Shown here: positions 1 through 45,405 of the stretch, in pieces | Numbering within the stretch: the stretch's first letter is position 1 | Layout of the letters: each line of letters opens with the position of its first letter | From: Acanthochlamys bracteata | Lineage: Eukaryota > Streptophyta > Magnoliopsida > Pandanales > Velloziaceae | Assembly (NCBI GenBank): GCA_019914995.1 | Contig: CM034136.1 | Span: forward strand, 2,991,270-3,055,269 | DNA length: 64,000 nt | Direction of reading: 5' to 3' | Notes under the pieces: generated by a model | What the model saw: the letters and a program-made list of their open reading frames with translations, nothing else | Told to the model about the DNA's origin: nothing | The model's database searches: none | Position numbers and translations under genes: made by a program

Positions 1-930
1 TCACCGCCTGCCACTTGCCTCCGGAAAAGACCTGCAACCCAGGTATGTCATCTTGGCTAAGGATAGTCACGGAGGTTCCATCGCAATGGGGGCCGGTACC
101 GAGGGTGAGCTGTGGCTGCTGGCACGGCGGGTAGTAGTTGACCCTCATGATTGATTCACTCCCCTTGAAGTAGTCTACAAGAGTTGATCTTTCTAGTCCC
201 AGGCTCACGCCAAGCATCTCGACGATCTCCAGCGACAGCTTGTGCATCATATTGCAGTACTCTTCCCAAACCATGCTACACATATGCACCAAATTATTTA
301 ACAATATATACAACAGAAATCTGTACTATGCATACATGCATATATAAACATAAAGCTTTTAGATCAACTAGTCTTTTATTCAGGTAAATATTTTACATAC
401 CCGAAGTCATGGAAGTTTTGGCCCATGGTTTCGACAAAATAGTCATGAATGGAACCAGAAGCACCGGGGTCTGAAAGATGACGAATAGAGAGAGTCTCCT
501 TCCATGGGAGCTTGGCAGACCACCTATCTGTGAAGCTGCTACTGTAGCCGTAACTCTCTCTGGACTTTCTCTGAGCACGATTCTTTTCGGATAGCGGCAT
601 TTTAAAGAATTGATCGGTGATCCGATAAACCTTGGCAATGAACTCAGAATCAACGTTGTGGTTCTTGAGATGGAAGAAGCCGACGGTTTCGCAAGCTCTG
701 CGAACTGCTTCCAGGATTTCTTTAGATGCCTGCGGATCGTTGATGCATGACTGAAGCTTATGGAAATCGATAACCGGTGCATTTTGCTCTTCAATAAGGC
801 CATCGTCAACCTTCGTCTTGAAATCATCGGGCCACACAAGCTGGGTAGGAATGTTCGCTTGCTTGTTCAAGTTTACTGCATCAAAAACCAGTTGTGAACT
901 GTCAATGGTGGCCATGCTATCTAGTTTCAC
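1..930 (-). CDS. GA20ox: Gibberellin 20-oxidase, 5' part (two exons seen, 3' end outside window)
   Basis: 2-oxoglutarate/Fe(II) dioxygenase of the GA 20-oxidase type, a cytosolic enzyme that successively oxidises C-20 of gibberellin precursors. Exon 1 is 930-401 (176 codons plus 2 bases). It carries the N-terminal signature LVFDAV...IPTQLVWPDD, then APVIDF, the DIOX_N core and LPWKETLSI, close to the family's LPxKETLSF. The donor GTATGT follows at 400. Exon 2 runs from 275 to beyond position 1 and begins after TGTAG; it reads VWEEYCNMMHKLSLEIVEML, then the cosubstrate-site motif NYYPPCQQPQLTLGTGPHCD, which contains the first two iron ligands (HxD). The third iron histidine and the 2OG arginine lie beyond the window. 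The first ATG (930) is used; a second in-frame ATG is at 915. Departures from the usual GA20ox sequence are HCDGTSVTILSQD in place of HCDPTSLTILHQD. A related C19/C20-GA dioxygenase is possible but less likely. Confidence 0.88.
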
Positions 931-1150
931 AAGAGTTGTGACCGGCTGCAGGCGTTACAATGTTTTCTCTTGTTGATTTTGATATATGTGAACAGAGTAG
1001 CATGTAACTCGTGATGCCGAGCGGAGTTTTAAAATCATTTTGTTTGTTGTATTGAATGCGGGCAATTAGTCTTTGATATATCCGAACTTTTTAATAACAG
1101 CAAAACTAAAAAGAAGACGTATGATTAACATGTATGTATGTTACTCTTTT
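931..1150. promoter_or_regulatory. Upstream region of the GA 20-oxidase gene
   Basis: About 220 bp between the start codon and the first foldback element. It must contain the 5' UTR and proximal promoter of the minus-strand gene. I see no unambiguous TATA box or GA-feedback element. Foldback and LTR insertions begin about 240 bp upstream of the start codon, so the proximal promoter is short before it meets transposon DNA. Confidence 0.4.
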
Positions 1151-4339: not shown

Positions 4340-5539
4340 AAACACTACTAAAAAATGACCTTCACCGGTTGATAAAATACCGACAAAAATAATACAATCG
4401 GTAACGTATCAAATATTGATTAAATATAATTTAATCGATAATATATTTAAATTTATCAACTGAATTTTAGTCAGTAAATTTATCGACTAAATTCTTTTTA
4501 GTCGGTAGATTTGTCGACTGCATGATATTAGTAGGTAATTAAATATCAGTTGGTAAATTGTGCTACTAGATCTAAAATTTAGGTGACAGATTTTATTTCA
4601 TTTGTCTTCGTCATTGCCCTCTCTCCTCTTTCTTTAGAAAATTTTCTCCCTCTATTGCTGCTTCTCTTACCAATATCTTTCCTAATTAAACTCATTTTGT
4701 CCTATTTACTGTTTTTTTAATCTCTTTTTTTCTTTCCTTTTTTCTTCCCTATGCCTACACTACTGCAAATTTATCCTTTACCGACTGACCAATTCTGTCG
4801 GCAAGAGGAGTAATTCAGTCAGTAAAGAATATTACCGACTAAAACAAACTCGGTCGGCATTCAATCGGCAAAGACTGATCGGTAACCCGTTTTTCGACTA
4901 ACAAACTAATTTAGTCGGCAAATTACTGTGTACTGCCGACTGATTTATTTTAGTAGATAATTAAAACAAATTATCGACTGAAATTTTAGTGGGTAAATTA
5001 AAATTACCGACTGAAATTTTAGTGGGTAAATTAAAATTACCGACTGAAATTTCAGTAGGTAAAAAAAATTACCAACTAATTATTCAAGGGTAAATTTAAA
5101 TTGCCGACTAAGATATCAGTGGATAAAATCAAATTACCGTCTATAATTTTAGTGGGTAAATTTAAATTACCAACTAAAATTTCAATAGGTAAATTTAAAT
5201 TAACGACTGAAATTTTCGGTGGCTAAATTTTAAGTTATCAATTGAAAACTTTAGTAGGTAAATTGATATTTTTGACTAAAACTTGTTATATTCTATATTA
5301 TGCATTAATATTACAAAAATATTTATTAAAATAATAAATAGCATTAAATATATATTTTTTAAAATTACACACCATTCATAAAAATATTTATAGTAGTATA
5401 TAAAATATTTATTAATACTACATATGTTCAATATTTATCACTATCAAATTTTCATTCATTAGTTTCACCTCCAAAGCTGAAATACCTCTTGCTGCTGCTC
5501 AACAATGTGAGACTTTAACTAGCATCTTCAGAAGCTAAC

Positions 5540-7125
5540 TTAGCAGACTTCTCTTGCCGTCTCAGCAAACTTAGCTCCTTTAACATATATATAAGCTTAA
5601 GCTTCATTCTTCACATTCTACGTTTAATAGATTTTCAACAAGCTCGGACTCATAACTAAGGAAGTCAGGCATATAGTTACTAGCGTCACACTGAGTACTG
5701 CCAATTTTGTATCGTTCACAAATCATAACCTTCAGAAAACCACAAAAAAAGAAGCAAAACTTATATAAGTTTGTCAGGTGATAAATCAGAGGTATGGACA
5801 ACCTTAACTCTTGGAAAGCAACTGAGGACTGGCTTTGGCTTATGATGGAGAATGTTTTGCTGATGATTGCTTGGGTTCCCACTACAGAGGCTAGTATAGC
5901 TATTATGAGCACATGCCACCTTATACTCTGTAGAAGCAATGGTTTTCATCAATATTTAATTGTGAAATCTAGCATAAGCAATATAGCTATCAGAGAAAAA
6001 ATTCATGCAAAATAAATGTTCTATAGCACTGCCATGGTTAATGCAACAATTATTAGCGAAAGGTCAGGCCTCCTCTTATGACTCCAAATTAACTAAAGCC
6101 TCAGTTATCTAAGTTTATTCACACAAAAGCTTCCATGATTTATTCACAGATTTTTGGCGAATTTAATTGATAAAAGAATGCAGCTTGACTAAATATTTGT
6201 TAGCTGGCACTATTACCTTCTTTTTCTTCACAAGCTTAAGAAATTTGATGATGCAACAACGCCTATGGTCGTCCTAAGCCATAAGCCTATGCATATCCAA
6301 ATTTGATTTTTCTTCCAGTTAGAGTTAAGCTCCTTAAAATAAGTCCATAAGCCTATCCAATGCCTATGGTCATCCTAACTGGCACTAATTCCTCACATGT
6401 TCAGCTAGATAAGCTAGTTCAGCTAACAAGATGAGAACAAAAACTTCATGCCTACCAAGAGCAACTATACTTTCATTAAAGCTCTTCCTCTAATCCAGAA
6501 TGCACATTAATCTTCCATAATTGCAAAGATAGTTTGCACAAGTCGCAGGACGAAGCCAAGATACTCACACTTCACACATAGCACAAAATATGTGTCTTGT
6601 CAACATTACCAACTAACTAATCAACAGTTTTCTCTTTACCTCGTGACTAAGGGAAAACAAAAATTCCAGAATTAATAGCAAACAACACTAAAAATATCAG
6701 ATTTTTTAAGCAAATATCCATACAACAGTGATACCCCTAACAACATGATTGAAGGGAAGCCTAAAAAATAATTTATCATCGCACGTAAGAACAAATGAAC
6801 ATAAAATCCTTCAGAAATGTTAAGTTTATCACAAATAGAGCTCAATTAGATACTCAATCACAAATAAGGAGGAGAAGATAAACTTAGATTTCAGTGGTCC
6901 AATTTCACAAAATTGACGACGGCGAAAGTATGGCTCGCACACACGCCGGTGAGATCTCAGCTTCAATCGCTGGCGCGTCTATGACGAAGGCAGCGGCAGT
7001 TAACAAGGAGGAGATTAGAGGTAGAAGAACAAGGAGAAATCAAGCGGGGAGGAGAGTTCGAAGCCGGAGCGGGAGCGGGAGAGACGAGCCAAGCACTAGT
7101 AGAGAAGAAAGAAAATGAACGGAAA
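5540..7125 (-). other. Remaining gene-like cargo of the inner CACTA element
   Basis: Non-repeat DNA inside the inner element. On the minus strand, 5604-5720 stays open and reads RYKIGSTQCDASNYMPDF, ending in LLNVECEE and a stop. A nearby frame, about 5520-5590, reads LKELSLLRRQEKSAKLASED and then stops. I could not assign these to a family. The 6880-7120 stretch is clearly GC-richer than its surroundings and resembles a plant 5' UTR or first exon on the minus strand. This would fit a captured gene running right to left. Whether all of it comes from the potassium-transporter donor is unknown. Confidence 0.4.
5785..5925 (-). pseudogene. Captured HAK/KUP/KT potassium transporter exon fragment
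   Basis: On the minus strand, after a CTACAG acceptor-like site near 5926, one frame reads WHVLIIAILASVVGTQAI followed by ISKTFSIISQSQS. A shifted frame continues with CFPRVKVVHTSD. Together these match the HAK/KUP/KT transporter segment usually written FVIAILASVVGSQAIISGTFSI...ALGCFPRVKVVHTS. The coding frame is broken by about one frameshift between the two parts. The fragment lies in the middle of the inner CACTA element, opposite to the window strand, so it is DNA captured by the transposon rather than a resident gene. It is too short to encode a transporter. Confidence 0.75.
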
Positions 7126-8060
7126 AAGATAACAAGCCGCGAGTAAATAGTATTATTATTTATCGACCAACAACTATTAGTGGTAAATTAGCTAATGAAA
7201 ATTTTAGCAGATAAAATTACCGACTGAATATAAGTTAAGTCGATAAACTTTTTGACCGAATTAGGTTCAGTCGGTAAAAAATTTTAATCAATAAATTTAC
7301 CGACTAAAATGGATTTCAGTCAAAAAATTTACCAACTGAATATATTTCAGTCGGTAATTTATTAATAAATATAAAGCTTTGATAAATTTATCGACTTGAT
7401 CGTTTTTTTTTGGGTAAAGCATCTAATTTACCGACTGACTATGTTCTCAGTCTGTAATTTAAAAATTTTACCAACTAAATTATTTTTAGTTGGTATTTAA
7501 TAAACTTATCGACTATATTTTATCAGTCGGTGTTTTATAGTCGATAAAAACTATATTTGTAGTAGTGCTACTACCCACATCCCATGATCTCCTTTCTTAG
7601 GCATACATGTCACACCCGGCGTCGAGCATTTCTCCTCTATCCTCTAGCCTTCATTCTTGTCCTCTGGCTGTTGCCGTCATGCTTTGTTTTTTTTCTTTTT
7701 TTGCCTTCTTTCTTCCCCGACGCCTACTACCCATAGGCAAGAATCCTAAATTTTGCCGGACTGCTTCGCCTGCCTTCCGGCCATGCTGAGCAACTAGAGA
7801 CTCTTCCCTCACAATATTAAGATTTTTCTCTTTTTGAATTTCGATGAATTGCTGCTCCATAATGTGAATCTATGGATTGTCGAATGTTGATGATTTTTTT
7901 TCTATTGATTTTTATGAAACATGGCTCCTCTCCAACTTAGACAACAAGATTTTGGCAGTGATGCTATCATGTCAAAAATTTTAATGATGTAATGATTTTT
8001 ATGAAACATGACTCTTCTCTCTAACTCAATTGTTTCTTCTGTAATGATGCTTGACTGCAG

Positions 8061-8159
8061 GAGAGCAAATTTCTGAATCTTTTAAGATTTATGTGGAACC
8101 CATTGTCATAGGTTATGGAGGCGGCTGCGATCATGGCCATTGCTTTGGCCAATGGAGGG
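8061..8159 (+). pseudogene. Captured plasma-membrane H+-ATPase exon (first membrane segment region)
   Basis: After an acceptor TTGACTGCAG, 33 codons read ESKFLNLLRFMWNPLS, then a stop where the family has tryptophan, then [16 protein letters not shown], and a donor GTTAG follows at 8160. This matches the P3A proton-ATPase exon KESK.[30 protein letters not shown], including the family's exon borders. The tryptophan codon has become TAG. The fragment lies inside the outer CACTA element. Keeping both splice borders shows capture of genomic DNA rather than of a spliced mRNA. Confidence 0.88.
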
Positions 8160-8488
8160 GTTAGTTTTATTGGCAATCACATATATCTGTAATATTTTTC
8201 TGTAATTTTTTGTCTAAATTCACCTGTTGTTTTGAATTCGTGAGACAAAGAAAGCCACCAATTCTAGTTGTCTTTGTTGTTGTATTATGTTGTTTGCTAT
8301 AGGCTCTAGTCAGTGATACTTTCGCTGCAATTACTTACCAATTCAAGCCAGAACATTTTCTTTCTAATACTTATCTAGCTGTTTGTTTAGTTGGCATTTT
8401 ATTAGTTCTATCATGATGATGAGTATTTACTATAATGATGTGGTGACATTGAGTATTGATTATAAATTTCTATTTGTGTTTGTACAAA

Positions 8489-8594
8489 TGCTCATGGATG
8501 GACCTAGAAAGAGGAAGAGGCTGCCGTTCTTATCCCACGAGATATTATCAGAATTAAACTGGAGATATAATTACTGCAGATGCTCAACTCCTTA
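8489..8594 (+). pseudogene. Captured plasma-membrane H+-ATPase actuator-domain fragment
   Basis: One frame reads EEEAAVLIPRDIIRIKL and, after a one-base loss, DIITADAQLL continues. This corresponds to the actuator-domain stretch [34 protein letters not shown] of P-type proton ATPases. The N-terminal LMDG is in another frame, and the tryptophan of DGRW is again TAG. The fragment lies 330 bp downstream of the first H+-ATPase exon fragment, in the same orientation, but the exon that lies between them in real genes (KPPDWQDF...) is missing. It is most likely from the same donor gene after an internal loss. Confidence 0.75.
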
Positions 8595-8790
8595 AATGGG
8601 TTTCTTTGATAATTGACCATATCCTAACATATTTTGTCAAGCATCTTAATAATTTTAGAATTATATTCACTATTTGATGTTTGATTTTTTTTCTCGTATT
8701 TTCTTATCCTCAAACATTGTCAAGATTTACATTTTCCAATGATTATTTATTATCATTATTTCGATCAAAGTTGTTATTTACTTTATGCAG

Positions 8791-8948
8791 GGACAACAAG
8801 CTGACCAAACTGCTTCTTGATTCCTTGGGTGGGAGAACAAAAACTTGTATAATAACTACTTTCACCTTCAGTATATTGCATTGAAGAGACTCTTATTAAT
8901 ACCTTACGTTATACCCATAAGACAAAGAATATTAAAAATAGGCCTGAG
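8791..8948 (+). pseudogene. Captured kinesin-5 (BimC) motor-domain exon
   Basis: After acceptor TTTATGCAG the frame reads DNKLTKLLLDSLGGRTKTCI and ITTFTFSILH. After a small deletion, EETLINTLRYTHKTKNIKNR then PE ends at a GTATTT donor. This is the end of the kinesin motor domain (RDSKLTRLL.DSLGG.TKTCIIAT...LEETLSTLDYAHRAKNIKNRPE), and the NIKNRPE ending is typical of kinesin-5. The switch-II-proximal motif is present; the rest of the motor is absent. Like the H+-ATPase pieces, it lies on the + strand within the outer CACTA element with splice borders kept. It is non-functional as protein. Confidence 0.85.
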
Positions 8949-10877
8949 GTATTTATGTAATATTTGCTCTAAACATTTTCTCACTGTTATTATGTAATGG
9001 ATATTTATGTAATGGATATATAATTATGAATTTTAATGAATGTTATATCTCAATTGATGAATATATATGAATTTATTGTAAATTTAGTACATATTTAATA
9101 ACTAAAATTTTGATGGATAAATTAAATTTACCCAATGAAAGTTTAGTGGGTAAGTTGAAATTACCCACTAAAATATTCAGTTGGTAAATTAAAATTATCC
9201 ACTGAAAAATTCAGTCGGTAAATTAAATTACCGACTAAATTATTCAGTCGATAAACTGAAAGTATCGACGAAAATTTCAGTTGGTAATTTACTATTTAAT
9301 ACCGACGGAATTTTTCGTTTGGTTGGTAAGTCGTTTAGTGACTAGTCGTTGCCGACTAACACATACTCAGTCGACAATTTGTGTTACCGACTAATTTATC
9401 ACCAATACCGATTGAATTTTGCAGTCGTTAAAGTTCCAATTTGTAGTAGTGAAAACATGATATAGAAGGATGAGCAACAGAAATAACAGTTTACTAAGAA
9501 CTCATCACTTGTATCAAACGAAACATCATTCCCAGACATGCGCAACCTTTTCTCTTTGTATGAAATTACTAAGTGCATAAATGGTACCCAATACCTTACA
9601 TCTTAGAACCAATGCAAGAAAACAGGTCATTAGTATTTAGATCATTAGCGATTAAGAAAAAACGGTCAGTAATGAAGACCAATAGCGACTGACTCACAAT
9701 GATCGCTATTATAAAAGTGCTAGCGACCGGCGTAAAAAGTAGTCACTAGTATTTATGAATCAGCGACTATTTTGTGGCTGCCATCTCTACTGATTCTAAC
9801 ATTAATTACTAAAGTATTCGCGACCATGACATATAGGTCGCCACTTCAAATATTAGCGACCAGAATGGCTAGCGAGTCGCTGTTGTCCTAAAGCAATATC
9901 GACCATCGTTGATCGGACGCTATTTCAAAGCAATAGCTTGCGTTTTAGTCCGCGATTGTGAATGCTTTAGAATAATAGCAACCGTTCTGGACTGCGGTCG
10001 TTATTGCTTTATGATAATAGCAATCGTGTATGTCTGGTCGCGATTGAGAAGCAATAGCTACCGTATATGTCTGATCGTGATTGATAAGTAATAGCGACTG
10101 TCAGCTTTTGTCTGATCGCTATTATATAAAAAATAAAAATTAGTTTATAAAAATTTATTTATCAAAATCTAAACTATTGGATGTGATTTATATTCTTTAT
10201 AGATCATATTGACAAGAGTTTAGATCATTTGAATGATATTTTGTGCTCAATTAAAATAAAATATTGATTGAACGTATAAGATTTAATAATTTATTAGCAT
10301 AATCAGAGTAATAACTTATATCCAAACTTGATGAAACTTTTTGTGAACAATAATGTTATATCATATGATGTATTTATTGGTATAGATCTCTATTTTATTC
10401 TTATAATTATGTGAATTAAGTATATACGTAAGCAACGATAGGACTAGTTAGTTTATGACTTATACTCCTAACCCGCGCCGATCTCCTAATCTCGCAGGTC
10501 TCCCGCCGCTTGCCGCATTGAGCCCATCTCGCAGCGCTGCAACTCGCTGTCGCCTCCTTTTGCCGTGCTTTGATGCCACCGTGGCCGATTTTAGTGAATT
10601 TGTAAATTTTATTTAAAATTAATAGAATATTTATTTTACTAAAATTAATTTTAAAAATTGTGATAAGTAATTATAAATAAATTTTATAAAATTATAACTA
10701 ATAATATTATATAAGTAATCTGTACAAAATTTATTAGTAAGAAATTAATTTTGTTAATAGAATGTTAATGTTTCTTTTGTTGTATATAGTTAATGTTTCT
10801 TTAATTATGAATCAATTTAATTTTGAAATGAACAAATCAACTAATTAAGTAGTTCTATGTTAATATCTTGTTGTAGT

Positions 10878-11215
10878 AATAGATAAGAGTTGGATGAAAA
10901 TTAAAAATAGAGTAAGCGAAGAGTATATTGATGGAGTTAAAAAATTTATGAAGTTTATTGGTCAGTATATAGAAAATATGGAAAGTATTTAACGACAGTG
11001 TAGATTTTGTTTAAATATATATTGGCAAATTTGAAAAGTGGTTGAAATGCATTTAATAACAAAGGGTATTATGGTGATGTATACCACATGGCTGGATCAC
11101 GGAAATAAGCTTTCAGAGACTAACAATCAATCAAGTAGAGGATTAGGAGAAACTCTTATTGTAGATGTCGACAGTGATGATGATGATAATGAATTATTTG
11201 AAATGCTAAATTAAT
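10878..11215 (+). pseudogene. Transposase-associated domain relic of the CACTA element
   Basis: The first part reads KSWMKIKNRVSEEYIDGVKK then FMKF, matching the start of the plant transposase-associated domain (DRSWM...R.S.EYI.GV..F). A later stretch (about 11046-11215) reads HLITKGIMVMYTTWLDHG and then an acidic tail VDVDSDDDDNELFEMLN and a stop. This matches the domain's C-terminal half (HL...GFM..Y..W..HGE). The cysteine-containing middle is unreadable, and a frame break separates the two halves. No TNP2 catalytic region follows within the element. Confidence 0.65.
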
Positions 11216-11324
11216 TGTAGTAGGTCATGAGTAAAATACTTGAAAAATGTTCACAAACTGACTAGCCGATTACATAAGAACAAATTATATAAAGAGTTTT
11301 TGGAAATAAATCTGGTTTGTGGTT

Positions 11325-11577
11325 AGGGATCAGGACCAAAACTACAGCGTAAAGATGATCGTGTATTCGAGGTATCTAGTCTAAGGACTCAACTAGAGAG
11401 AGTAAGAGAAGAACGGGAGGGTATGAGTGGAAGACTTAGTGTTCTTCTGTAGGAGGTCTCAAGAGTGACTACCCTTGAAGAGGAACTAGAGCGATAACAT
11501 CCGCAATTCAACGTACTCGTGTAAATGATGCAGTTTATGACAAATCAACTGCAAAGACAGGATCCAACTTTAGGTAA
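11325..11577 (+). pseudogene. Coiled-coil tail of a CACTA-encoded protein
   Basis: A nearly open frame reads VFEVSSLRTQLERVREEREG, MSGRLSVLL, a stop, EVSRVTTLEEELER, another stop, and FNVLVQMMQFMTNQLQRQDP. The heptad-like Leu/Glu/Arg pattern and the MTNQLQRQDP ending resemble the C-terminal coiled coil of the second protein (PttA/tnpA-like) of plant En/Spm elements. It has at least two in-frame stops. It lies between the transposase-associated relic and the right subterminal array. Confidence 0.45.
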
Positions 11578-12699
11578 GTGGTTATCTTGTGGTCGTAAAC
11601 TTCTCACTCTTCAATTTTTTTATAATTTATTAATATTATTATACGATATCTTTAGATATCAGCAAGTTAGAGAAAATTTACGATTTAAAATTTTAATTTA
11701 GAATAATTTAGTTTAAAATAATATAGGGGGGACTAAAATATGAAATAAGTCATCAAATGGTACGAAATTGTTGCCGACACGATCGGCTCGACGAGTGAGA
11801 CGGCAGGAAGAGTAGGAGGAGTAAGTTAGAGTCAATTTTAAAGTTTAAAAATTTAATATATAAAAGCTTATTTATTACAATATAGGGGTCAAAATATAAA
11901 CTAAGTCGTCAACATAGGCAAATTTGTTTTCATTTTAGATTCACGAACGTTAGTTCTTATTTGAGAAGAAGGACGCCCTCAGTATTTGATTCTTTGGTTT
12001 ACGCAGTTTTTGATTATTTAGAACAATCTAATGAAATATTTTTATAAATTTTGTATTTGTTGTATGAAAACAACGATATAATATAAAACTTATATAATAT
12101 TGACTATATTTTGTATTTGTTGAATGAAATTATAAATTTAGTAATATTTAGTATTGAATTAGTATGTTATAATATTTTTCGTTAGAATATAAATAAAACG
12201 TAAATAAAAAAACTAAATTAGCGACCAGAATGGAGTAGTCGTTGATATCAAATAACAGCTAGTAGCGCGATGTGGTAGCTAATGGGTAAACAATAGGAGC
12301 TTCTGTGACCAGTAGCTGGTGGTCGCTAAAGTGAACATTTGCGGCTAACTACTTGCAGTCGCTATAGTTCTTGCTAAAGCGACTAGGCGATTTGGCCGCT
12401 GATGTCAGCACTTTACGATCGTTTGCTCGAGATCGCTGATGTAATCATTAGCGATCACTGTGAGCTGGTCGCTACTGTCAATATAATTGCGACCTTCTTT
12501 ACCTGATCGCTAATAATTTAACAGTGACGATTGGTATTGTTGGGATCATTGCGACTGTAGTTTCAGTTGGTTGCTAAAGGCTTTAGCGACAGTGCAACTA
12601 GTTTGGCGACCATCTTTTTTTGGTCACTAAAAGCTTTAGTGACGGTTTTCAATTTATAGTGAACAACTTTTGCGACCGCTATTGGTGAACCCTCCACAC

Positions 12700-34018: not shown

Positions 34019-34029
34019 TATATATAAAT
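34019..34029 (+). promoter_or_regulatory. TATA box of the UXS gene
   Basis: TATATATAAAT lies about 130 bp upstream of the UXS start codon. This spacing fits a transcription start near 34055 and a 5' UTR of about 100 bases containing a long pyrimidine-rich tract (34100-34152). Confidence 0.55.
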
Positions 34030-34159
34030 TGAAGCACCCATCAAACCGGGAGTAGAGGAGGAAGAAATTAAAAGCTTTAGAAGAACAGACACTGTTCTGT
34101 TCTTTCGCATTATAAAATATTTTTCTTTTTTTAGTTTTTTTTTTTCTTTTCAATCGAGC

Positions 34160-37100
34160 ATGGGTTCATCGGAGTTGATCTATCGCGGCCATGAAACGCC
34201 GTCTTCCGGCGAAAATGGCGGCCGGTATTCTCCGAAACAAGCCAAGCCATGGACGTCAACGTTCTCACGCCCGATCCGGTATCTCCTTCGTGAACAACGG
34301 CTTCTGTTCACGCTTGTCGGCATGGCTCTGGCAACTCTCGTCTTCCTCTTCTCTCCTTCGGCAAGGCCGGAGAACTTCGCGGGGTTCACTGAATCGACGG
34401 CGGTTTCAGCGGCGGCGGCGGCGGCGGCTTTGAAGGTGGTGAATTATCAATCGATGGCTGTGAGGCAGCCACACCGAGCAGCTTATGAGCAGAGGTTCAG
34501 AATTCCGTTGGGGTTGAAGAGGAAAGGCTTGAGGGTGGTGGTTACCGGTGGAGCAGGATTCGTTGGGAGTCACTTGGTTGATAAACTTATCGCCAGAGGA
34601 GATAGCGTGATCGTTGTCGACAATTTCTTCACTGGGAGAAAGGAGAACGTTATGCACCATTTCGGTAACCCCAATTTCGAACTCATCAGGCACGATGTTG
34701 TTGAGCCAATCTTGCTCGAAGTCGACCAGATCTATCATCTTGCTTGCCCTGCCTCGCCTGTTCACTACAAGTTCAACCCCGTCAAGACAATCATATCCTT
34801 TATAAATTTCATTTCCCTGGTTCCTTCGATCTATCTCTTTATCTAGTTCTTGTTAGAAAAAAAACGCTTTTTTTGAATTGCAAACTTTCTTGATATCGTT
34901 GATCGGCTTCACTTTCATTCGTGCAGATTTTTTGATAAAAAAAGTAGAATTTCTACTCTTTTTCCAAAAAAATTTGAACATTTGGTTTCTGATTACAGTT
35001 ATTAGTATGATTTATGGAAAGTTAGGTTTGTAGGATGACGTATATATTTCATAACAGAAATCTCTGGATTTCTTCTCAGATCAATCTTTTCTCATTCTCT
35101 CTACTTCTGTCCGTTTGTAGTTGGATTAAATATACTAGTAATGAGTTAATGCAACCATTCCCTTGTGGGAAACGTAAGTACAAAATCTTCACTTTGTTCA
35201 AAGAATTGGAGACCTTAACCCAAGAATTGGTTGATGGTCGCACAAGACGAACGTGGTAGGGACACTGAACATGCTTGGATTGGCTAAGCGTGTTGGCGCG
35301 CGTTTCCTTCTCACCAGCACCAGCGAGGTCTATGGAGATCCACTTCAGCACCCTCAAGTCGAGACCTACTGGGGCAATGTCAACCCAATTGGTCAGTATC
35401 ATACCAAATTCAATCAATCTCGTTCCAATTTCATCCGTATTCAAACAGATTTTGATCAATTTGCAATAGATCTATTTAATGCTGGAGAGATAGGAGAGAA
35501 GGGGAGATTAACAAGGTTTTAGTTTGGTTTCTTAGGGACTGGGCTAGTTTTCAGGTGATATCTGCCCACTATTGAGTGGCATGTGATCACTGCTCATGCA
35601 TTAATTCACTTCAAGACCCTTGCTCAAGCTTGTTCTGTAATTTATTAGTGGTGGGGATTGAGAGAATCAATGGGTTCCATTTCACTGCTTTTTATTTCAG
35701 GTGTTAGAAGTTGCTATGATGAAGGGAAGCGGACGGCCGAGACTTTGACGATGGACTACCACCGTGGTGCTCAAGTTGAGGTAGATCTTTATAAAACTTA
35801 CAGCTTTCTTTCACTGTTTTACTTGTCGGCTTAATTAAAGGTTCAATTGGTATTGCGATGTCATTGATCAATTGTTTATTGTTTGGGAGTAGGTTAGAAT
35901 TGCTCGGATCTTCAACACGTACGGCCCTCGCATGTGCATTGATGATGGCCGGGTTGTCAGCAACTTTGTTGCCCAGGTACTGCATCAAAATAAGTTCATG
36001 GTTTTCCTTCCTTTTAATGACAACAAATTGGGGAAATGTTTTCATTTATATGGTGAATTACAGGCATTGAGGAAGGAGCCAATGACAGTTTATGGAGATG
36101 GAAAGCAGACAAGGAGCTTTCAATATGTCTCTGATCTGGTAATACAGATATTATTATCTATATCTGACTACTTTTTGGTGATCTTATTCTAGATAATGAA
36201 AAAAATTAGTGAATGAGACATTTCATAGCATGCATTTGGCTTTTAGGATTGGAATAATCCTCATTTTAAGACTAAACTAAATCAAGCAAAAATTAGTTTT
36301 GTTTATAATCATGGTTACATGTTAAGTGGCAGCATATTCACAAGAATGGAGTGACAACTGTACATGCTGTTCCACGTGCGCACCTAAGTTGCTTGTGTGC
36401 TGTAGTTAGTCAACCATCTAACAGCAGAAAGGTTTTGCTCAGTTTTCAGATAACATATAATTGAGTATCGAACGTATGCCATCCATTAACTGATCTTAAA
36501 ATGATTTGTGTAATGAGATAAGATTTCCACTACTCATTAAGTTTCTGAATGAACTTCATACTCCAAGATCGAAGCCAAGACTTATTTCCGAACATCTAGG
36601 AGTGTTGCTTTTTTATTAGACATCATGATACACTGTTTACTGATCTGGTAGTGTTCTTTGGGCAGAAATTTATCGGTAATTGGGGAACTGCATCCTGTAT
36701 GCCATTAAGGCCTTTGTAACTGCAAAATGTTGAATAGTCGGCACATAGTTGAAACTGCAAAATCTTTTGCAACTCTGGAAAATCTTGCTTTTGCTGCCAT
36801 GCATTATTATTACCTAAACTTAGGTGCTGTAGAAATGCCAAGATTTTTTTCCCACTGTATTGATGTTCATGTGCATACTGTGTAATTATCTGTAGCATAT
36901 TAACTGTCCTAGTGAAATAACGACATGATCGCTATCTCTACATTCTTGCACAGATCTGGAAAAACTTATGACACTTTGCATAGGAACTAAAAGTGCTAGA
37001 GTCCTCCAGACTAATAATATTTAATTGAAGTTTCTTTGAAGTATCTGATACTGGTAGCAACTGATTATCATTTAATCAAAGAGCTCATTTAACTTATCTG

Positions 37101-37581
37101 GATTAAGGATTCAGATGTAGAACATAGTTGCAACTATCTGACACATTGTACTTGATTAAGGCTTGTTATTTGCTTTTAACATTGAACCTCTGATGCCAGC
37201 AGAATCACAGAGAATGTTATGTTTACTGGTTGGCATATGTAATAGCAATGTTTCTTACAGGTGGAAGGGCTGATGAGGCTGATGGAAGGTGAGCATGTAG
37301 GTCCATTCAACCTGGGTAATCCAGGTGAGTTCACAATGCTTGAGCTGGCCAAGGTGGTGCAGGAGACCATTGACCCTAATGCGCGAATTGAGTTCCGGTC
37401 AAACACAGAGGATGATCCCCACAAGCGCCGTCCTGACATCTCCCGAGCCAAAGAGCTTCTTGGTTGGGAGCCGAAAATCGCTCTCCGCCAAGGTCTTCCC
37501 CTCATGGTATCAGACTTCCGCAAGCGTATATTCGGTGATCACTCTTCTGAATCCTCCAATGTAGGTGCCGGTGCTGCTTGA
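34160..37581 (+). CDS. UXS: UDP-glucuronic acid decarboxylase, Golgi membrane type, 6 exons
   Basis: Converts UDP-glucuronate to UDP-xylose using bound NAD+, supplying xylan and other glycans. Exons: 34160-34792, 35244-35391, 35701-35780, 35893-35976, 36064-36138, 37261-37581. They sum to 1,341 bases, 446 residues, the usual length of the membrane-bound plant class. An N-terminal cytosolic stretch with basic residues precedes one membrane segment at about residues 48-64 ([17 protein letters not shown]), giving a type II Golgi protein. The alanine run follows at 84-90. The NAD-binding GGAGFVG is at 130-136 and [11 protein letters not shown] at 154-164. [10 protein letters not shown] (235-244) and Y266-x3-K270 (CYDEGKR) form the SDR catalytic set. 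[10 protein letters not shown] and [13 protein letters not shown] follow. The first intron is AT-AC; the others are GT-AG. The start is the first ATG after the TATA box. Confidence 0.96.
34793..35243 (+). other. U12-type AT-AC intron of the UXS gene
   Basis: The intron starts ATATCCTTT, an exact match to the U12 5' splice consensus, and ends CGCAC. A branch-site-like CCTTAAC lies at 35213-35219, about 25 bases before the 3' end. Splicing here joins NPVKTI to [12 protein letters not shown] in frame, restoring the invariant UXS sequence. No GT-AG alternative restores it, because the coding bases on both sides are needed. Confidence 0.9.
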
Positions 37582-39310: not shown

Positions 39311-39670
39311 TTATTGAAACTTCAAAAAGTTTGATGATAATAAAAATTAAATAGAGCATTTAAGTAATAATAAGCTCAACCGAAGTATTTCGAAAGAACA
39401 GCAAAGAAATTAGCTAGCTATCGCTCGTGCTGTCTTTACTTCGGACATCAGTCAGCTACCGTTGCTGCGGATCAGCTCAACAGCATTTATATAGAACAGA
39501 GAACAAATCGAACACCAGCTGGTACATGCTGCTGTTCATTAGAGAATCTATACAAAGCAGCCAAAGAACTAGCTAGATGGTGAGCTATTAATTATCATAC
39601 AGAGAATCTTTCGAAGATCACACTAGAACAACAAACATGTAATATTTAGAGCTGATTTCAAAGATGATTT

Positions 39671-43187: not shown

Positions 43188-43319
43188 CCCTCGATGATTA
43201 ACTTTATCGTCATTAAGTAAACCTCTTTAATCTCTCTTTATCAGATTCACAATTACACCTAGCCCTAGTCTACTGCTACGCCTACGCACCTGAAATAAAA
43301 ACAAAAAAAGAAACAAAAA

Positions 43320-45405
43320 ATGGCCACTCAGAAGCAGAACAAGAAAGTGAACAAGAAGCCAACATCACCAGATCATCATGCACAAGAAATCTGTCCAAAG
43401 TCTCCGTCGACACCGATAAGCTCTGAAGAAATAACGGAGTTGAGAAACGCCGCCAGTGAGAAGTTTCTGCGATTGCCCAAGTTTTCAAAGGGTTTCAGAT
43501 TCGTGCCTACGGACTACGAACTCGTACGCCATTATCTCTTTAACAAGCTTGCCGGACGCAGCCTTCCCTGCGACATCATCAACGATGTCGACGTATATAA
43601 GTACAACCCACAGGATCTCACAGGTCGTTTCTTGCAGAATATTTATTTCTTTCTTGTTAGTTTCATTCTTGATACAGTTCTTGGTATCTGTTCTTTCTTC
43701 TCTTTAATTATTTTCCCTCTGCATATCTTTCCATTGAAGAATTTCTAATGCACGCATATATACGTTTTGCTTAATATATATTTTACTCTTTCGCTTACTA
43801 TATGCTTTGCTTTGCAGACACTGTTGATGCTTTACAATAAACAGAAACTGCTATTTTGAGGATTTTTTTTATTTTGAATTTGATCCGAAGATTTGTTTAC
43901 TTTTTGCTTAGAGTAACATTTTTTGTTGAGAACAATTTGGTGCATGCAGTGGTTTGTTTAATTAAGGTATAGTCTTTGACGCTTGAAGTGCTTCGCGCAG
44001 GCTTCTGTTATATTAACGTGTGGGAGTTTTCTGCTAATTATAAGTTTCATAAATTATAATGCACGATGTTAATATATTTTATTATTTTGGTCATATTTCT
44101 TTTGTATTCATATAATTAGAACTGATGAATAAATAACCTAGGCTATAGTACTAAAGTATAGTTTCAATAAGTCTAAGATAACATGTAACTTGCTGTGTTC
44201 TTTTTTCTATTTTTCCCAACTCTATTGTATTAGCCCTTCAATCATTAACTATCTAAATACAAAAATTTCCAACTATTTAAAGATTTAGTCTGACATCCCT
44301 AGAGTAGTTCATCGTTCCAATTAGTATCGTGTCATCTCCATATATAAAACTTTCAGCAATGTATTTCTTGTCAATTACCTGTTTGTAATAATTCGAGGTA
44401 GCTTGTGATATTTCTCATTATTGAACTGTGTGTACATGTTGTTGGATGTAAATCAGAAATATACCGGAGCTTTGGAGAAAATGAATGGTATTTCTTCACT
44501 CCAAGGTCACGGCGATACGAGAAAGGAAACCGTCCTAACAGAACAGCCGGAGACGGATTCTGGAGAGCCGTAGGGTCTGATAAGACCATAAAAGAACATG
44601 GCAGGCAAATCGCATCGAAGAAAACTTTAGATTTTTTCTGGGGAACGCCAAAAAATTCTACCAAGACCAATTGGATCATGCATGAATTTTTGCCTACTAA
44701 TGCAATCCACTCTAATTTACAGGATGGTACTATGAAGGTAAAATTCATATCAATTTTACTACGTATTTAACCTTTTTTTAATTTTATATTTAGTATTTGT
44801 TCTTTGGATTCTGTTGCGTGCAGCTGGATACATGGGTGCTATGCAGTATTCGGAACAAAAGAAAACGCTTGTACAAATTAAAGGGTGAACAAGCTGCAGT
44901 TACATGCTGCATTAACGAAGCTTCTAGCTCCAGTCTGCAACAGCCAGGAAACAGTCGCCAGGAAGAAGAATTCATGAACGATCAGACAGCGATTGTACCA
45001 CATTACAGCCCTTCATCTGGCTATATGCTTATTCCACAGAAACAACAAGGATACTTTCAACAGGAACAAATATTCATGAACGATCAGTCTGCGATTGCAT
45101 CGCAGTATAATTCTTGGTCTTCTACCGCTTATCTGCAGCAGCTTCAAGGAGACTTTCACCAAGAAGAAGTGTGCATTAATAATCAGACAGCGACGGCACC
45201 ACGTTATACTTGCAATACAGTTCCGAAGATGAACGCACTAGAAGGAGAAGGCTGTAGGTATGATCAGGTACTTGCAGATATTTCCTTCGAAGATTACACC
45301 GTTGATTCCTGTTTCTTCATCGATGCTTCTCAGTACCAAAACTTGGATGGCAGCAGCAAATGCAACCATATGCATGCTCAAGAACAAGTAACAATTACTC
45401 AATAA
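43320..45405 (+). CDS. NAC-domain transcription factor, 3 exons
   Basis: A plant-specific DNA-binding transcription factor. Exons: 43320-43623, 44457-44737, 44824-45405; total 1,167 bases, 388 residues, all GT-AG. A lysine-rich N-terminal extension of about 55 residues precedes the NAC domain (residues 57-210). Subdomain A is [20 protein letters not shown], then [14 protein letters not shown], then C/D with [43 protein letters not shown] and finally [15 protein letters not shown]. It is divergent: FVPTDYELV for FHPTDEELV, and CSIRNKRKR for CRIYKK. The standard NAC gene layout of two exons for the domain and a long third exon is kept. The C-terminal region has three imperfect repeats of about 32 residues around [13 protein letters not shown]. 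No membrane segment, so not a membrane-tethered NAC. The specific orthologue is not recognised. Confidence 0.92.

Follow-up and report, generated by a model that had tools for sequence, protein, structure and literature searches.

Evidence for two nested CACTA elements carrying fragments of three host genes in Acanthochlamys bracteata

How did pieces of three unrelated genes, for a HAK/KUP potassium transporter, a plasma-membrane H+-ATPase and a kinesin-5, come to lie together between CACTA-type ends in the genome of Acanthochlamys bracteata? The question is raised by positions 4343–9451 of a 64-kb window (the whole stretch of DNA that was analysed, 64,000 nucleotides), and the reading that we favour, at a probability of roughly 0.9, is that two non-autonomous CACTA elements, probably of one family, are present, and that the inner one, with its HAK cargo, was inserted in inverted orientation into the cargo of the outer one.

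Element ends, target-site duplications and nesting

The outer non-autonomous CACTA element (4343–9451, plus strand) is 5109 bp long, with the termini CACTACTAAAAA and TTTGTAGTAGTG and with subterminal repeats, and its target-site duplication AAA was located by the end-motif scan on both the left (4340–4342) and the right (9452–9454) side. The inner non-autonomous element (4758–7567, minus strand), 2810 bp in length and similar at its ends to the outer element, is bordered by the duplication CTA at 4755–4757 and 7568–7570, identified in the same scan. All four ends start with CACTACT, a trait of the CACTA (En/Spm) superfamily thus present in both elements. Transposition in this superfamily produces target-site duplications of 3 bp, and this trait was likewise present, as AAA in the outer and CTA in the inner element. 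The earlier note had described two nested CACTA elements with these two duplications, both of which were found, and the coordinates proved exact. The chance agreement of two random trinucleotides in this window is 0.022, from which the probability of two matching duplications by chance becomes ca. 5e-4. Over the 64 kb, the simple motif scan returned the four CACTA-type ends of the outer and inner elements and three weaker matches, located at 39621 (plus), 60539 (plus) and 25223 (minus). No blastn match to either element (E-value up to 1e-3) was obtained in the 64-kb window outside 4343–9451.

The subterminal zones of both elements are arrays of near-palindromic units of ca. 33 bp, e.g. AAATTACCGACTGAAATTTTAGTGGGTAAATTT. 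Within approximate limits, these regions extend over 4343–4560 (outer left), 4758–5290 (inner left), 7140–7567 (inner right) and 9090–9451 (outer right); the inner left region includes a tandem array with a period of 33 bp at 4968–5264, and the outer right region an array with periods of 33 and 67 bp at 9101–9291. All six end pairs were aligned over 60, 120, 200 and 300 bp, with z-scores obtained from 100 shuffles. At each of the four lengths, the two top raw scores belonged to the pairs outer-left/inner-right (20.0, 42.0, 47.2 and 52.8 with increasing length) and outer-right/inner-left (20.2, 26.8, 37.2 and 87.5), the other four pairs scoring 10.2–20.0 at 120 bp. The z-scores backed the same pairing at 60 and 120 bp and were tied at 200 bp, outer-left reaching 7.6 with each inner end; at 300 bp, outer-right/inner-left was far ahead (15.3), and inner-right scored 8.4 with outer-left, 8.8 with inner-left and 9.2 with outer-right. 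Orientation is blurred in this comparison because the repeat units are near-palindromic. On the basis of end similarity, the inner element is probably, though not certainly, a same-family copy inverted relative to the outer element, a point absent from the earlier note; in that case all the cargo, HAK on the minus strand and ATPase and kinesin on the plus strand, would be oriented alike with respect to the element that carries it.

The insertion site of the inner element was reconstructed by joining its flanks with one CTA, and the joined sequence was aligned to the rest of the outer cargo. The best match scored 47, compared with at most 34 in 200 shuffles, and included 12 exact bases spanning the junction; these bases, GCCTACTACCCA at 7722–7733 (plus strand), represent the insertion site in its empty state and lie in a pyrimidine-rich near-duplicate. 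As controls, the left flank joined to the beginning of the inner element gave 35 of the 47 points, and the end of the inner element with the right flank gave 20, so that the junction itself contributes no more than a fraction of the 47. The presence of a near-copy of the insertion site within the outer cargo supports nesting.

A different origin would be the fusion of neighbouring one-family insertions, the outer ends then being used as one element without simple nesting. Pack-TYPE elements are described as acquiring sequence in this manner in the available parts of two papers (PMC8903248, PMC13317346), and the top raw scores among the end pairs were those of outer-left/inner-right and outer-right/inner-left. 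We consider this fusion unlikely, as the inner element has a CTA duplication of its own, its insertion site is unbroken in the near-duplicate, and the combinations 4343/7567 and 4758/9451 are without matching duplications (AAA versus CTA). Due to the same disagreement of the duplications, two overlapping instead of nested elements, 4343–7567 and 4758–9451, were ruled out. Nesting of the inner element in the outer one is thus the well-supported arrangement.

Host gene pieces between the element ends

In the inner element, an exon piece of a HAK/KUP potassium transporter gene was identified at 5785–5927 (minus strand), with a frameshift. Against the Pfam family K_trans, this piece gave E-values of 3.3e-6 as an unedited open frame and 1.6e-12 with the two frames joined; against Potassium transporter 5 in PDB, which was named in all seven matching rows, the respective values were 0.006–0.02 and 7.3e-11. 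Read by eye, its border is CTACAG/AGTATA, with the acceptor-like CTACAG on the 5′ side. A stretch at 6893–7125 (minus strand), beside the inner element's right-hand end, is richer in G+C (0.45–0.50 versus 0.30 alongside) and looks by eye like a leader or first exon; it had no Pfam family match on the minus strand.

In the outer element, the earlier note had reported cargo from an H+-ATPase gene, and this identity was borne out by matches to AHA2, with the correction that the cargo consists of two separate pieces. Piece A (8061–8159, plus strand) corresponds to AHA2 residues 44–75 and contains one in-frame stop; with X at the stop, the PDB search returned AHA2 (5ksd) with an E-value of 1.2e-9 and, as the second of two matches, ‘Plasma Membrane ATPase’ (1mhs) with an E-value of 0.85. 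Piece B (8494–8603, limits approximate, plus strand) corresponds to AHA2 residues 131–159, contains a frameshift and, at its start, a stop, and matched AHA2 in PDB with an E-value of 1.3e-4 when the two frames were joined by X; the second of its two matches was unrelated (E-value 0.91). In alignments to AHA2 residues 44–159, piece A scored 121 and piece B 60, the maxima among 300 shuffles of each being 43 and 39, respectively. Neither piece reached a Pfam family at E-values up to 1. By eye, piece A has the borders TGCAG/GAGAGC and GGAGGG/GTTAG, and no splice-like borders were seen for piece B.

A stretch near 8250–8300, located between pieces A and B, is exon-like by eye, and a query joined with it scored well; it is not claimed as a middle ATPase exon, as its score when aligned alone was equalled or exceeded by 88 of 1000 shuffles. 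With AHA2 residues 44–159 as the only yardstick, no ATPase similarity above that of shuffles was found at 7700–8055 or 8610–8785, and earlier or later ATPase exons may still be located there, the comparison being limited to these residues. A 30-nt direct repeat (7903–7932 and 7990–8019, 90% identical, starts 87 bp apart) was also observed in the outer cargo just upstream of piece A.

The third gene piece is a frameshifted kinesin-5 motor-domain exon at 8791–8948 (plus strand), which lies about 190 bp from ATPase piece B. With the two frames joined, the Pfam family Kinesin was matched with an E-value of 3.2e-12; as a single frame with stops as X, the E-value was 0.0027, a match that falls short of the Pfam cut-off. 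The top match in PDB was a kinesin-5 (E-value 1.3e-16), compared with 4e-13 for the best match of another class, KIF3B, and the best 22 of the 60 matches listed (135 matched) were named Kinesin-5, KIF11/Eg5, Klp61F or KRP-130. By eye, the borders of the exon are TTATGCAG/GGAC and CCTGAG/GTATTT.

The Pfam and PDB matches back the cargo assigned previously, HAK/KUP to the inner and H+-ATPase and kinesin-5 to the outer element, and pieces of host coding DNA between element ends, as is typical of Pack-CACTA, are therefore present. The further statement that splice borders are kept on the ATPase and kinesin exons is valid for piece A and the kinesin exon, on both sides of each, and not for piece B; for the HAK piece, a splice border was seen on the acceptor side. 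The AG/GT borders at piece A and the kinesin exon, as read by eye, suggest that the cargo was probably captured as genomic DNA, and the capture of host-gene pieces as such would follow from the content of the 64-kb window.

Alternatively, the gene pieces could be resident gene or pseudogene sequence that was invaded by CACTA elements, instead of cargo. This we hold to be highly improbable, given that the two end pairs enclose parts of three unrelated genes, piece B of the ATPase being so close to the kinesin exon. Capture as cargo is the reading retained here.

A stop, a frameshift or both were found in all four gene pieces, and the cargo is decaying and most likely without protein function. 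The earlier note had suggested that, if transcribed, the unit could yield chimeric RNA or small RNAs against three essential genes. The splice-like borders retained on two exons would fit a chimeric gene that is functional, or small-RNA production from the unit with regulation of the three donor genes, and chimeric spliced RNAs from a soybean CACTA element that had captured gene fragments are described in the available account (PMC1947982). Such a functional unit is very unlikely, although the stops and frameshifts count against a protein and not against small RNAs.

Further captured genes were searched for in nine frames, on the minus strand at 5290–5780 and 5950–7140 and on the plus strand at 7568–8060, and eight of the nine were empty in Pfam at E-values up to 5. 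The remaining frame gave a match to MlrC_C (E-value 0.29, 11.8 bits with a cut-off of 27.2), which was regarded as a chance hit. The remaining strands and cargo segments were covered by a six-frame Pfam scan at E-values up to 1. The same scan, of limited sensitivity, returned no transposase family in 4343–9451; it also overlooked the HAK and ATPase pieces, and therefore is evidence against an intact transposase, not against small remnants. Both elements are non-autonomous, and being without a transposase does not exclude membership in the CACTA superfamily. No RNA families were found at gathering score in the 64-kb window.

Proposed history and surroundings of the locus

Whereas the ends, duplications, gene identities, stops and frameshifts are read directly from the DNA, the order of capture and insertion that we infer is as follows. 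The outer element would have taken up genomic pieces of the plasma-membrane H+-ATPase and kinesin-5 genes, and the inner element would have acquired the HAK/KUP gene piece before its own insertion. The inner element would then have inserted into the outer cargo in the opposite orientation, duplicating CTA. Both elements would presumably be mobile only with transposase supplied in trans, and the outer ends could now mobilise all three cargoes jointly. It is a tentative and rather doubtful extension of this history that such inverted nesting, between two same-family CACTA elements with gene cargo, is an intermediate stage in the stepwise formation of multi-gene Pack elements that move jointly. 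Should the genome contain further copies of the 5.1-kb composite, they would reveal nesting as a way in which cargoes become joined; otherwise the consequence is mainly one of annotation, as H+-ATPase, kinesin-5 or HAK gene models called here would be false. The locus offers a clean single-locus example of CACTA elements collecting and combining unrelated gene pieces.

Adjoining the outer element, a second repeat-rich element was observed at 9620–12690, with subterminal repeats of the TAGCGACC type; its ends were not found. A Transpos_assoc domain (PF13963) is located at 10885–11103 on the plus strand (E-value 3e-17 with stops as X) and contains two stops. The repeats at 9.6–12.7 kb and this domain indicate that more than one CACTA-related element is present at the locus. 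Elsewhere in the window, an open frame at 376–954 (minus) belongs to a 2-oxoglutarate dioxygenase-like gene (PF14226, E-value 1.5e-25), and one at 34028–34846 (plus) to an NAD-dependent epimerase family gene (PF01370/PF16363), which we take to be probably UDP-glucuronate decarboxylase; the open frame at 37246–37581 may be a later exon of the latter gene. The open frame at 43299–43748 (plus) may represent the beginning of a NAC transcription factor.

Comparison with known gene-carrying elements

The earlier classification as a Pack-CACTA-type unit agrees with the features that can be tested in the sequence, namely the ends, the duplications and the host coding pieces. Gene-carrying CACTA elements are covered in a 2026 review (PMC13317346), and in a narrow literature search no paper on a published nested CACTA element with a captured H+-ATPase was found. 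The comparisons below refer to the available parts of the cited papers.

Tgm-Express1 of soybean is a 5.7-kb CACTA element with five host gene fragments, giving rise to spliced chimeric RNAs (PMC1947982). Like the present case, it is composed of fragments of unrelated host genes that retain exons, introns and splice sites; it differs in that a single element, itself situated in a known gene, contains all five fragments, whereas here three genes are distributed over two nested elements, and in that spliced RNAs were demonstrated, the present case being known from DNA alone (PMC1947982). In Chenopodium, CACTA elements carry captured gene fragments and, as here, subterminal repeats (PMC8978399), but their fragments are situated upstream of a transposase-associated (TAD) domain, none of which was found in 4343–9451. 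The maize retroelement Bs1 has transduced pieces of three genes, one of them for a proton-dependent membrane ATPase (PMC13317346), and thereby resembles the present combination of three host genes with one membrane H+-ATPase; being an LTR retroelement, Bs1 represents a different mechanism and has no kinship to the elements described here.

A likeness is also seen to Pack-CACTA elements, known in Arabidopsis and maize, those of maize frequently combining sequence from two or more source loci (PMC8903248). As in these, the elements are non-autonomous, with CACTA-type ends, target duplications and host coding DNA, but for Pack-CACTA the family copies and source genes are known, whereas the present case is read from one 64-kb window (PMC8903248). 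Orientation is mostly conserved in local maize pairs (12/15 for hAT and 12/13 for PIF) and likewise in new Arabidopsis Pack-CACTA insertions; in contrast to such local insertions, which mostly keep their orientation, the present pair is nested and probably inverted (PMC8903248). The case thus fits Pack-CACTA or Tgm-Express-like elements and is a known sort of gene-fragment shuffling, not a new one, its less usual trait being that two elements with gene cargo, probably of one family, lie one inside the other and probably in inverted orientation.
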